A stretch of DNA of 64,000 nucleotides from Planctomycetaceae bacterium (GTDB lineage Bacteria > Planctomycetota > Planctomycetia > Planctomycetales > Planctomycetaceae), in NCBI GenBank assembly GCA_015485495.1, contig WFTL01000034.1:1-64000 (forward strand), written 5' to 3'. Both the position numbers and the translations under genes were made by a program. The notes below the pieces were generated by a model. That model was not told the DNA's origin and searched no databases. It saw only the letters and a program-made list of their open reading frames with translations. Below, piece after piece: positions 37,255 to 42,834 of the stretch. Positions within the stretch are counted from its first letter, which is position 1. Every line of letters starts with the position of its first letter.

Positions 37255-39822
37255 CTATTCGTCTCCGCCGTCTTCACCGGTGCCCACGGACGCCAGTTCC
37301 GATGATTCGGATTCCGGTTCGTCTTCGGGTTCCTGGAAGTCGCCATCGAATTTGAGCTGTTTCTGGTCGCCCACTTCGGTCACGTCGACACGGATGACGT
37401 TTTTGCCTTCGAAGGTTCCTCGCAGGAGTTCTTCGGACAGAGGGTCTTCGATGAAGCGTTCCACACTGCGCCGCAGCGGCCGGGCACCATAATCCAGGCC
37501 ATCGTCCATTTCGCCTTTGTCGATGATGAAGCCGCGGGCCTCGTCGGTGAGTTCCAGACGCAGGCCGCGTTCCCGGAGACGTTCGTGGACTTTGTTCAGT
37601 TCGATATCGACGATCTGCATCAGCTCGGCGCGGGTGAGTTTTCGGAAGACGACCACTTCGTCCAGCCGTCCCAGAAACTCGGGCTTGAACTGTTTCTGCA
37701 GTTCGTGCATGAGATGACGTTTCATGTCTTCATAAGACTGTTCTTCGTCCGTATCCCGCAGGGTATGCAGGCCCATGCTGCCGCCGTGCGCCATCTTGTT
37801 GGCTCCGGCATTCGTCGTCATGATCAGGATGACGTTCTTGAAATCGACCGTGCGGCCGAAGCTGTCGGTCAGGTGCCCTTCTTCCATGATCTGCAGCAGC
37901 ATGTTGAAGACATCGGAATGGGCCTTTTCGATTTCGTCCAGCAGGACCACGGCGTAGGGACGCCGCCGGATTTTTTCGGTGAGCTGACCGCCTTCTTCGT
38001 AACCCACATATCCCGGAGGTGCTCCGATGAGCCGGCTGACGTTGTGTTTTTCCATGTACTCCGACATGTCGATCTGAATGAGCGCGTCTTCGTCTCCGAA
38101 CATGAATTCGGCCAGCGTCTTGGCCAGCAGGGTTTTCCCCACACCGGTCGGTCCGGAAAACAGAAACGCTCCGGTGGGCCGTTTGGGATCCTTCAGGCCG
38201 CTGCGGCTGCGGCGGACGGCTTTGCAGACCTGCCGGATGGCTTCGTCCTGACTGATGACGCGTTTGTGCAGTTCGTCTTCCATCTGCAGCAGCCGAACGG
38301 CATCTTCGCTGGACAGCCGGGTCAGGGGGATGCCCGTCATCCGGGCCACGACTTCCGCCACGACTTCGGCATCGACGACTCCGTCCGTGCGGCGGGATTT
38401 TTCCCGCCATTCTTCCGTGAGCTGATCTTTTTTGCGCCGCAGTTTGTCGGCCTGGTCGCGCAGAGCGGCCGCCTTTTCGAACTGCTGTTCGGCGACGGCT
38501 TCTTCCTTGGCCTGATTCAGCCGCTGGATTTCGTCTTCCAGTTCCTTCAGGTCGGGCGGGCGGACCATCGACTTCAGCCGGATGCGGGCACCGGCTTCGT
38601 CGATCACGTCGATCGCCTTGTCGGGCAGGCAGCGGGACGTGATGTAGCGGGACGACATTTCCACGGCCGTTTCCAGAGCGTCGTCTGTGATCTGCACCCG
38701 ATGGTGTTCTTCGTAGCGTTCCCGCAGTCCCTTGAGAATATCGACGGCCTGAGCGGGGGACGGCGGATCCACGATGACGGTCTGGAAACGCCGTTCGAGG
38801 GCCCCGTCTTTTTCGATGTACTTGCGGTATTCGTCCAGAGTCGTGGCGCCGATCACCTGGAGTTCTCCGCGGCTGAGAGCCGGTTTGAGGACATTGGATG
38901 CGTCGATGGCTCCTTCGGCTCCGCCGGCTCCCACCAGCGTGTGCAGTTCGTCAATGAACAGGATCGTGTTGCGGGCCCGCCGGACTTCGTTCATCACGGC
39001 CTTGATGCGTTCTTCGAACTGGCCGCGGTACTTGGTGCCGGCCACCATCATGGCCAGATCCAGAACGATGATGCGGCGATCGGCCAGCAGGTCCGGCACG
39101 TTGCCGTCGACAACCATCTGAGCGAACCCTTCGACGATGGCCGTCTTTCCGACTCCGGCTTCTCCCAGCAGCACGGGATTGTTCTTCTGACGCCGGCACA
39201 GAATCTGAATGACTCGTTCGATTTCCCGTTCCCGACCGATGACCGGGTCCAGTTTCTTCTGACGCGCCAGTTCGCTCAGGTCCCGTCCGAAACTGTCCAG
39301 CGCCGGTGTCTTGCTGCGCGAACTGCCGCGGGAAGAACTGCCTTCGCTGCGCTCGCCGGATGATCCGGCTTCCGCGGCTTCCAGTCCGTGGCCCAGAAGG
39401 TTGAGCACTTCTTCCCGCACTTCTTCCAGTTTCAGGCCCAGGTTCATCAGGACCTGAGCGGCGACGCCTTCCTGTTCCCGCAGCAGTCCCAGAAGAAGAT
39501 GCTCCGTGCCCACATAGTTGTGGTTCAGGTTCCTCGCTTCTTCCATGGCGTACTCGATGACCTTCTTGGCGCGGGGCGTCTGGGGCAGTTTGCCCATGGT
39601 CACCATGTCCGGTCCGGTCTGGACGATCTTTTCGACTTCGATGCGGATCTTGCGCAGGTCGACGTCGAGATTCTTCAGGACGTTGGCGGCAACGCCCGAT
39701 CCTTCCTTCACCAGGCCCAGCAGAATGTGTTCGGTCCCGATGTATTCGTGATTGAACCGCTGAGCCTCCTGGTTGGCCAGCTGCATCACCTTGCGTGCCC
39801 GGTCGGTGAAACGTTCGAACAT
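37255..39822 (-). CDS. clpC: ATP-dependent Clp protease ATPase subunit ClpC
   Basis: 855 residues. Two Clp-N repeats (1-67 and 82-145), a first AAA+ domain with Walker A GEAGVGKT (220-227) and Walker [13 protein letters not shown], a UVR coiled segment ([24 protein letters not shown]), and a second AAA+ domain with [18 protein letters not shown]. The C-terminal Clp_B-type domain ends in an acidic tail. ClpC unfolds substrates for ClpP; adaptors bind the N-domain. The next gene upstream (divergent) carries its own Clp-N pair. Start ATG at 39822. Confidence 0.95.
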
Positions 39823-40384
39823 TCGACTTCCCTCTCGCTGTGTCTTCGTTGTTTTCGCTCGAACGATGCCTCAGGCAGGAGGATCGGTCGATCATTTCTG
39901 GCTGGTCGGCGATTCCGGCCATCCGGCGGGACGGTTGAAACCACCGAGAATTACAGTCAATCTAGCGCCCTGGAGGCCACGTCTGATCGGGAATTGCCGT
40001 TCGCCTGCGAAAATTTCCGGACAGACATGTCGGTTGCAGCGAGAAGACTGTTTCCCGCTGCGGGCCGTGATGTCTCACCCGCGCTCGTTTTTCGTTCAAG
40101 AACCTGGTTCTGATGCAACCCGCACGATCCGACTGCCATACCGGCAGACGGGTCGGTTCCCGTCCACGGGCCGCGAATCACGTGCCGGATTCTATGGGGG
40201 GGCCGGAATGGCGACAAGACAGGGCCGTCAGACTCCATGGAACTGTCGTTCGCGGCCGGAATTTGTCAAGGGTGGTCTTTCGCGGATTCCGGGCGTTCGT
40301 TCTGCCGGTTGCGGCCGGGCAGAAGTCGTTCGGTGCCGGGTGGGAGTCCCCTGCGAGTTCTCTTCTGGCGGAGACCTGTGAACC
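39823..40384. other. 562-bp divergent intergenic region between clpC and the thiE fusion gene
   Basis: It should hold promoters for both genes. On the minus strand, TTGACT at about 39955-39960 could be a -35 for clpC, but no good -10 follows at the right distance. No CIRCE-type or CtsR-like repeat was recognised. No ORF is supported. Confidence 0.4.
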
Positions 40385-42079
40385 GTGTTTGCCGACGAAC
40401 TGACCCTGACGCCTTCAGCGGCACGTGTGATCCGCCGCACCGGCCGGGCTGCCGCGCTGGTTCCGGAGGCTGACGTCACCGGACATCTGGTGGCGGCTTT
40501 GCTGCAGGAAGAATCGCTGGCCGGCGCCATCCTTCGATCGGCCGGTGTCCGTCCGGACATGCTGCCGAACATCCCGTCACACGATGCGGCCGGCCTGTCC
40601 GATTCGGAAGATACCGACCGGATCAGCGACCGCCTGTCGGATCAGCACCTGTCTGAACTGTCGCCGGGTCTGCTGGTGCTGCTGCACACGGCGCAGAAGC
40701 TGGCCCGCCGGCAGCCGGATGTCACGGACATCTCCAGTGAACATCTTCTGGCAGCCGTGTTCGAAACGGAATCTTCGGTACGCCGCCTGCTGCTGAAGTC
40801 CGGACTGACGGCGGATGCGGTGATGGCCCGCAGCAGTGACAGTCCGGAATCATGCGGAGAAGCCATTCCCGTTCCTTTCGAATGGTCGGATGACGAAGGC
40901 ATCCACCGGCAGTCCGGAGAACCTGCTGCGGGCAGCCGGCAGGAATCGGTCTGTTCTGTCGAGCTGCCGGCCGCCGTCGGTGCCGACGTTCGGTTCAGAC
41001 ATGGGCGCGTATTCGATGCCTGTTTCAATCGTGCTCGTGAAGGACTGCGTGTTCTGGAGGACTGCGCCCGATTCCTTCTGGACGATGCACGCCTGACATC
41101 CGCTCTGAAAGCCATGCGTCACCGTCTGCGGCATGGTGAACAGCTTGTGGAAGCCGCCAGTCCGGATGCCGAAAACCGCATCGTCCGGGACCGCGACACA
41201 CCGGGGGATGTGGCGACCGGTCTGACGAATGAACCGGAATCCCGGCGGGCGGGTGTGGAAGACATCGTTCATGCGAATGCCCGGCGCGTGCAGGAAGCGC
41301 TGCGCAGTCTCGAGGAATTCGGAAAGTTCGTCGGTGCCGAGTTTGCAGAACAAATGAAGCAGATGCGCTATGAATCCTACAGTCTGCATCAGCAGATGGT
41401 CCGTTCGTGCCGTCAGCTGTCTGCATCGACACGTCGCGAACAGCTCCGATCGGCCCGTCTGTGTGTGCTGATCACCGAATCCGGATGCTGCCGGCCGTGG
41501 CGGGATGTCGTCCGCGCCTGTCTGGATGCGGGAGTCGACATGCTGCAGCTTCGGGAAAAACGGCTCAATGACCGGGAGCTGTTCCGGCGGGCCGACTGGA
41601 TGACCGGTGCGTGCCGCCGCGCAGGCGCTTTGTGCATCATCAACGACCGGGCTGACGTGGCGGAAGCCGTCGATGCGGATGGTGTTCATGTGGGGCAGGA
41701 CGATCTGTCGCCGCAGGCGGCCCGCGCTGTGGTCGGTCCGGAGCGGCTGGTGGGGCTGTCCACTCACAGCCGCGAAGACATCGTGGAAGCCGTCGCGGTC
41801 GATGTCGATTACCTGGGAGTCGGTCCGGTGTTTGATTCGGCCACGAAGTCGTTCGACCGCGTGGCCGGGCCGGAGCTTCTGCGGAAGGCTGCCGAACAGT
41901 CGCCCGACGTTCCCTGGTTTGCCATCGGGGGAATCGATCTGTCTGTGATCGACCGGGTTCTGGAGACCGGGGCGGCACGCATTGCCGTATCTGCTGCGGT
42001 GATCGCCGCCGAAGATCCTCAGCAGCAGGCTGCCGTCCTGCGCCGGTTTCTGCCGCCGCTGAAGGAACCCCTGTCGTGA
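40385..42079 (+). CDS. thiE: Clp-N repeat / ThiD2 / thiamine-phosphate synthase (ThiE) fusion
   Basis: 564 residues, GTG start. Residues 1-60 and 92-148 are two Clp-N-like repeats (SSEHLLAAVFETESSVRRLL compares with Clp[21 protein letters not shown]). Residues 206-345 are ThiD2 (RVFDACFNRAREGLRVLEDC), reported as a monofunctional HMP-P kinase often fused to ThiE. Residues 357-558 are ThiE: MLQLREKRLNDREL, CIINDRADVAEAVDADGVHV, LGVGPVFDSATKSF and FAIGGI hold the pyrophosphate and thiazole-binding residues. It would phosphorylate HMP-P and join it to thiazole phosphate. A hydrophilic linker (149-205) separates the Clp-N part. Stop overlaps comF (GTGA). The gene is divergent to clpC, and no other thi gene is in the window. 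Confidence 0.85.
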   Translation: MFADELTLTPSAARVIRRTGRAAALVPEADVTGHLVAALLQEESLAGAILRSAGVRPDMLPNIPSHDAAGLSDSEDTDRISDRLSDQHLSELSPGLLVLLHTAQKLARRQPDVTDISSEHLLAAVFETESSVRRLLLKSGLTADAVMARSSDSPESCGEAIPVPFEWSDDEGIHRQSGEPAAGSRQESVCSVELPAAVGADVRFRHGRVFDACFNRAREGLRVLEDCARFLLDDARLTSALKAMRHRLRHGEQLVEAASPDAENRIVRDRDTPGDVATGLTNEPESRRAGVEDIVHANARRVQEALRSLEEFGKFVGAEFAEQMKQMRYESYSLHQQMVRSCRQLSASTRREQLRSARLCVLITESGCCRPWRDVVRACLDAGVDMLQLREKRLNDRELFRRADWMTGACRRAGALCIINDRADVAEAVDADGVHVGQDDLSPQAARAVVGPERLVGLSTHSREDIVEAVAVDVDYLGVGPVFDSATKSFDRVAGPELLRKAAEQSPDVPWFAIGGIDLSVIDRVLETGAARIAVSAAVIAAEDPQQQAAVLRRFLPPLKEPLS

Positions 42080-42834
42080 CGGCTCCTTCTGTTCAGCCGC
42101 TGCGTCGAGCCCTTCTGGACCGGCTGCTGCCGCCTGTCTGTGTGGGATGCGGGGCATCCACCTGCGGCGGAACGGCCGATCTGCCGGCGGCCCTGTGTGC
42201 CGACTGCCACGATTCCCTGGCGGTTCCCATGCCGGTCGTGTGTCGTCGCTGCGGTGCCCCGGCCGGACCTCATGCAACCGAAAACAGCCGCTGTCCGCAT
42301 TGCCGCGGCCGGGCGTTTCGGTTTCAGTCCGTGACCTGCCTGGGGATGTATGAAGGACTGCTTCGGGAGCTGATTGTCAGCGGAAAATGGTCGCTGTCGG
42401 CGGTGAAGGTGCGAACCGTGGCGGGAGTTCTGGCAGCCGCCCGCAGGGGGCGTCTCATGGCCTGCGGTGTCGATCGGATTCTGCCGATTCCTCAGCACTG
42501 GACGCGGCGTCTGTTCAGGAACTTCAACGCGGCTCAGATCGTGGCCCGGGAAATCGGACAGGTCCTGGGGCGTCCCGTGGACAGCGGGATTCTGCGCCGC
42601 GCCCGCCTCACGCCTCCTCAAAAAAGACAGACTCTCCGGGAACGGGCCGCTCTGCAGAAAGGTTCCTTCGATGTGGCCGGTACGGGATGCATTCAGGGAA
42701 AGAGTCTGCTGCTGGTCGACGACATTCTCACGACAGGCGCCACGTGCGATGAAGCCGCTCGGGTGCTGCTGAAACAGGGAGCCCGCGCCTGCCACGTGGC
42801 GGTTCTGGCCCGCGTCTCGGCGTGGGCATCGTGA
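42076..42834 (+). CDS. comF: ComF-family phosphoribosyltransferase-like protein
   Basis: 252 residues, GTG start overlapping the thiE stop. The N-terminus has a zinc ribbon (CVGCGAST, CADCHDSL, CRRCGAP, CPHC), and the C-terminal type I phosphoribosyltransferase domain has the PRPP loop SLLLVDDILTTGATCDEAARVL. ComF proteins are needed for DNA uptake in naturally competent bacteria; some may act in nucleotide salvage or as ssDNA handling factors. Translational coupling to a thiamine gene is unusual but may be incidental. Confidence 0.88.
   Translation: MTAPSVQPLRRALLDRLLPPVCVGCGASTCGGTADLPAALCADCHDSLAVPMPVVCRRCGAPAGPHATENSRCPHCRGRAFRFQSVTCLGMYEGLLRELIVSGKWSLSAVKVRTVAGVLAAARRGRLMACGVDRILPIPQHWTRRLFRNFNAAQIVAREIGQVLGRPVDSGILRRARLTPPQKRQTLRERAALQKGSFDVAGTGCIQGKSLLLVDDILTTGATCDEAARVLLKQGARACHVAVLARVSAWAS

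Follow-up and report, generated by a model that had tools for sequence, protein, structure and literature searches.

ClpC, ClpA and ClpB meet their adaptors and substrates through their Clp N-domains, which act as receptors and can have other roles too. ThiD2 phosphorylates HMP-P and ThiE joins the product to thiazole, giving thiamine phosphate; the two domains are known as a fusion, the bifunctional thiamine phosphate synthase PRK02615 (PF17792 with PF02581). Fusions of Clp_N to other partners are likewise already known. The plant proteins ClpT1 and ClpT2 (PDB 4y0b, 4y0c), which are part of the plastid Clp protease, carry a Clp_N pair outside an unfoldase, and ClpT1 binds the Hsp100 proteins ClpC2 and ClpD and stimulates the ATPase of ClpD (PMC4243950). 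In the mycobacterial ClpC2 (PDB 8ad9, 8b9o), a cyclomarin sponge and auto-repressor, Clp_N is joined to a non-AAA module and is a sensor of peptide ligands that alters the output of that module (PMC10030653). The vWA proteins of the FtsH ternary conflict systems also join ClpN repeats to a non-Clp domain (PMC7159879). The one open-access paper found that brings Clp_N and planctomycetes together concerns conflict systems, and within the open-access literature no published description was found of Clp_N combined with ThiD2-ThiE, nor any that pairs Clp_N with TMP-TENI. The preliminary description of the locus presented here likewise knew of no ThiD2-ThiE fusion with a Clp-N pair.

The locus lies in the window, the whole 64,000 nucleotide stretch of DNA that was analysed, from a Planctomycetaceae bacterium whose nearest named relatives are Fuerstiella MAGs, as found by a search with an alignment as query. 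The gene (40385..42079, forward strand) encodes 564 aa, from a GTG start at 40385 immediately 3' of an in-frame stop to a TGA stop at 42077-42079. In order, and all on the forward strand, it encodes a double Clp_N domain (residues 8-151; 40406..40837), a disordered linker (residues 152-206; 40838..41002), a ThiD2 domain of the HMP-P kinase type (residues 208-336; 41006..41392; PF17792, E 5e-38) and a full ThiE, or thiamine phosphate synthase, domain (residues 361-539; 41465..42001; PF02581, TMP-TENI, E 1e-54). Pfam, NCBIfam and AlphaFold agree on this arrangement, which is the one first proposed. Residues 207-556 match PRK02615 of NCBIfam, with its order of ThiD2 then ThiE, at 364 bits against a cut-off of 335, and the ThiE domain is above the NCBIfam cut-off for TIGR00693. 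In alignments of the relatives (A1 and A3), the ThiE motif residues Q388, R390, K392, N420, D421, T487, K488 and G515-G516 are invariant, as are many charged residues of the ThiD2 domain. The protein is thus a predicted bifunctional thiamine-phosphate synthase bearing a Clp_N pair on a flexible tether of about 55 residues. A ComF-like phosphoribosyltransferase gene (42076..42834, forward strand) overlaps the stop of the fusion gene by 4 nt and probably forms an operon with it; the same gene order is seen in the Fuerstiella-like loci L036, L042, L044 and L060.

The first 148 residues had been read as two Clp_N-like repeats. Pfam bears this out, with two stretches up to residue 146 that match Clp_N (PF02861) at 38-42 bits against a cut-off of 20.7 (E 1e-9 to 1e-10). 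An AlphaFold prediction of the full protein, made with 62 relatives, gives two folded halves with a low-confidence linker between them (pTM 0.67). The Clp_N helices (residues 10-25, 31-41 and 45-52 in repeat 1; 94-108, 118-126, 131-138 and 143-151 in repeat 2) have pLDDT values of about 90-97, with residues 8-151 mostly above 90, ThiD2 and ThiE are also confident, and the linker is at about 40-55. A Foldseek search with the whole model returned mainly ThiE structures, the top matches being thiamin phosphate synthases, and for this reason the N-domain was folded and searched separately. The leading matches of the isolated domain, from both Foldseek and VIA, are all Clp N-domains, namely those of ClpC, ClpB, ClpA, ClpT and ClpC2. 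VIA aligns 120-132 residues with about 20% identity and Z scores of about 13-14; the Foldseek E-values are modest, the best being 4.5e-4. The best match of the single sequence to the PDB is weak, which indicates that the fused domain is divergent. The Clp_N match is not due to chance, since it is found by Pfam at the same position in 25 of 26 fused relatives (E 0.01 or better) and the N-domain profile matches 68 of 80 further loci (E < 1e-14). Profile matches and predicted fold together confirm that residues 8-151 form a genuine double Clp_N domain, though a divergent one.

The predicted double-repeat helical fold is that of the ClpC, ClpB and ClpA N-domains (PDB 5hbn, 1khy, 6pbs). In contrast to those proteins, the fusion is joined to a metabolic enzyme and most of the ClpC anchor and phosphoarginine residues are lost; AAA modules with Walker motifs were not matched by Pfam anywhere in the 564 aa, and the protein is thus not an Hsp100/Clp unfoldase. 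It resembles the accessory proteins of the ClpT and ClpC2 type, both of which share the fold, in having its Clp_N pair outside an unfoldase. However, ClpT has no enzyme domain, nor has ClpC2, and the vWA-ClpN proteins belong to a conflict-system context rather than to thiamine synthesis. Compared with PRK02615, the difference is the extra N-terminal part of about 206 residues, made up of the double Clp_N domain and the disordered linker.

The fusion is the only TMP-TENI protein over the cut-off in the window genome, and the same is true of nearly all of 40 relatives. In the window genome, a search for the ThiD family (PF08543) gave nothing beyond partial matches of low score, and no canonical ThiD was seen there; true ThiD scores above 240 bits in four of the relatives. 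Thiamine synthesis should therefore pass through the fusion protein. No TPP riboswitch or other Rfam element reached the gathering score within the window.

The domain order is not unique to the window genome. It is found class-wide in planctomycetes, with the N-domain present in 86 of the 102 distinct planctomycete ThiD2-ThiE proteins sampled. When genome contigs were scanned, a query with the single protein gave no match and a query with an alignment did. Among 80 named loci, 68 have 147-398 aa of additional N-terminal sequence, scoring 50-166 bits against the N-domain profile, and 12 are without it. By NCBI orders, the domain occurs in Planctomycetales, Pirellulales, Gemmatales and Isosphaerales, which are all four named orders of Planctomycetia. 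It is absent from all six loci of Phycisphaerae, where ThiD2-ThiE without Clp_N is normal. In a sample of 195 genomes of the phylum, most ThiD2 frames outside the class of the window have a length of 340-430 aa, which leaves no room for the extension, and among the matches listed the strong N-domain-profile matches within ThiD2-ThiE frames all belong to that class. Two MAGs labelled Candidatus Kuenenia stuttgartiensis (loci L037 and L045) also carry a fusion of the Planctomycetia type; their labels are probably wrong.

When the presence of the N-domain is mapped on a tree built from the catalytic half of 102 proteins, of which 86 have the domain, a minimum of 8 changes is required; shuffled labels require 15.1. 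The trait is clustered, with repeated loss or gain. Some lineages, among them family f5 and the loci L009, L011 and L023, are without the domain, which they apparently lost or never gained and which is dispensable there. A split gene was considered for relatives without the domain and rejected, the only nearby Clp_N-like frames being those of clpC itself. Where the domain is present it is under purifying selection, less constrained than the catalytic half, with dN/dS in close pairs of 0.10-0.24 for the N-domain and 0.03-0.08 for the catalytic half.

The divergent neighbour is clpC (37255..39822, reverse strand; 855 aa). Pfam recognises two Clp_N stretches, UVR and two AAA modules in its product, which is thus a full protein of the ClpC type. 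Both 'GTEH' glutamates of the pocket are retained in the N-domain of this ClpC. The head-to-head arrangement across 562 bp (39823..40384) is exactly as in the preliminary description, and this intergenic region is partly conserved in Fuerstiella-like relatives. A promoter-like site directed toward clpC, TTGTCG-17-TAGAAT (40189..40217, reverse strand), which is a consensus match only, lies in a block conserved with loci L036 and L044; with this site as promoter, the 5' UTR of clpC would be about 370 nt long. A second intergenic block, TCTAGCGCC at about 39962-39970, is invariant in four Fuerstiella-like loci.

Counted in loci whose upstream DNA extends for 1.5 kb or more, a divergent clpC is beside 19 of 59 fused genes and 1 of 12 unfused genes, and three further unfused relatives face clpC (L011, L023 and L029). 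The synteny is real, since by our own estimate the chance of such adjacency is below 0.1% for roughly 5,000 genes. The fusion and the adjacency are decoupled, because clpC is next to about one third of the fused loci and is also found beside unfused genes. Among the neighbours, only clpC was found to recur widely; in the scanned loci without clpC no other conserved neighbour recurs, except for a thioesterase-like gene in two. In locus L028 (1-684), the clpC-like match beside the ThiD2-ThiE gene is unusual in that it is split and shares only about 45% identity with the ClpC of the window.

It is possible, and we tentatively favour this at a little short of an even chance, that the Clp_N pair serves in docking or sensing and thereby links the sole thiamine-phosphate synthase with proteostasis. 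As a module it would be non-catalytic and tethered to the enzyme, and would most likely bind a proteostasis protein or peptide; candidates are an Hsp100 (ClpC or ClpB), an adaptor and unfolded segments that lie exposed. Binding would make the level or the activity of the enzyme depend on protein quality control. This remains the best reading in view of the precedents of ClpT1 and the mycobacterial ClpC2; the binding of a partner, its identity and the direction of regulation are inferred. In its favour are the identity and predicted fold of the domain, the disordered tether, the spread through four orders under purifying selection, the sole copy of ThiE and the recurrence of clpC as a neighbour. 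In plants, the thiamine enzyme THIC was enriched in a CLPC1 trap (PMC8889267), a result that goes no further than showing that the Clp system and thiamine enzymes can meet. Against docking, the ClpC and phosphoarginine contacts are mostly lost, the N-domain is missing from some lineages, and clpC is next to only about a third of the fused loci and also occurs beside genes without Clp_N.

The main rival, somewhat unlikely in our view, is a purely internal structural or allosteric role with no link to proteolysis, such as oligomerisation, solubility or folding back on ThiD2-ThiE. The N-domain and the catalytic half stay joined while clpC adjacency comes and goes, and the N-domain, in the manner of accessory domains, changes more quickly than the catalytic half. 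Directly after the Clp_N pair, linker residues 159-167 (40859-40885; E-A-I-P-V-P-F-E-W) are better conserved than the remaining linker, with a family consensus of about EP[LI]x[VI][DE]xxL, and this segment could pack in cis. In an alignment of the fused N-domains its columns have P in 81%, L/I in 78%, D/E in 72% and L in 70%; a simple regular expression matched 36 of 81, making it a loose motif. However, the AlphaFold model has the two halves on a low-confidence linker and not as a packed unit, and several relatives do without the N-domain, as Phycisphaerae normally do.

A role as ClpC adaptor or decoy, proposed in the preliminary description, is quite improbable. The domain would mimic the ClpC N-domain and displace it, activating or occupying ClpC, or would deliver the enzyme to ClpCP. 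The resemblance of fold and the 19 head-to-head loci are consistent with this, as is the control of ClpC activity by docking of its N-domain; through T7, R9, E32, K85 and E106 that N-domain keeps ClpC at rest and binds phosphoarginine, and it has a hydrophobic groove (PMC12583610). The fused domain, however, keeps the Clp_N fold and, as judged from its residues, not the known ClpC contact set. Alignment of 81 fused N-domains with the ClpC of the window and the B. subtilis ClpC N-domain, in what we take to be the numbering of the latter, has T or S at the T7 position in all 81. R9 is lost throughout, replaced by A, G or S in 80 and by Q in one; K85 is mixed, with Arg in 24 of 81 and Leu97 in the window protein; E32 is unconserved, with Gly33 in the window protein; and neither R122 nor T81 is kept across the family. 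Of T7, R9 and K85, which anchor docking to the ClpC body, only the T7 position therefore persists. The loss of most contact residues (R9, E32 and K85) disfavours both a simple ClpC mimic and a phosphoarginine reader. Moreover, the ClpB N-domain profile outscores that of ClpC in 78 of 81 fused domains, although the reverse scores are even (71.0 vs 68.4 bits) and the ClpC profile was built from near-identical sequences. clpC adjacency is also seen without Clp_N. Docking through ClpS is unlikely too, since ClpS was not found in the window genome or the genus.

It is very doubtful that repeat 2 reads phosphoarginine, binding a protein arginine-phosphorylated by an McsB-like kinase and so tuning the enzyme. 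The window genome has an McsB-type ATP:guanido phosphotransferase domain, as do 39 of 40 genomes of relatives (G000:C54:8830-9414 included), which makes the domain near universal in this planctomycete class; it matched in 0 of 14 control genomes. Of the 81 fused domains, 52 have Glu and 11 have Asp at the E106 position (Glu119 in the window protein), alongside the conserved T7 position. Yet of the two pocket glutamates that of E32 is gone, T81 and R9 are not kept, and a Glu at the E106 position may be a mere structural feature of Clp_N. It is highly improbable that the domain is an evolutionary passenger, the 5' part of the neighbouring clpC duplicated into the gene with no selected role: the head-to-head layout makes duplication conceivable and some lineages are without the domain, but dN/dS is well below 1 in close pairs, the domain spans four orders, and it is about 25-27% identical to clpC and no closer to ClpC than to ClpB.

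Docking or sensing linked to proteostasis thus remains the preferred reading of the Clp_N pair. A more specific form of it, which we regard as unlikely, is that the synthase, by its free Hsp100-type N-domain, makes direct contact with ClpC, ClpB or their clients, and that the proteostasis load would in this way throttle vitamin B1 synthesis or set the turnover of the enzyme. If this direct contact is true, domain fusion would have given planctomycetes a class-wide and hitherto undescribed kind of Clp-linked metabolic control. That selection has kept a Clp N-domain on the only thiamine-phosphate synthase across a bacterial class suggests a direct line from protein quality control to the synthesis of B1, and the fusion is a natural test case for the function of Clp N-domains away from the unfoldase.
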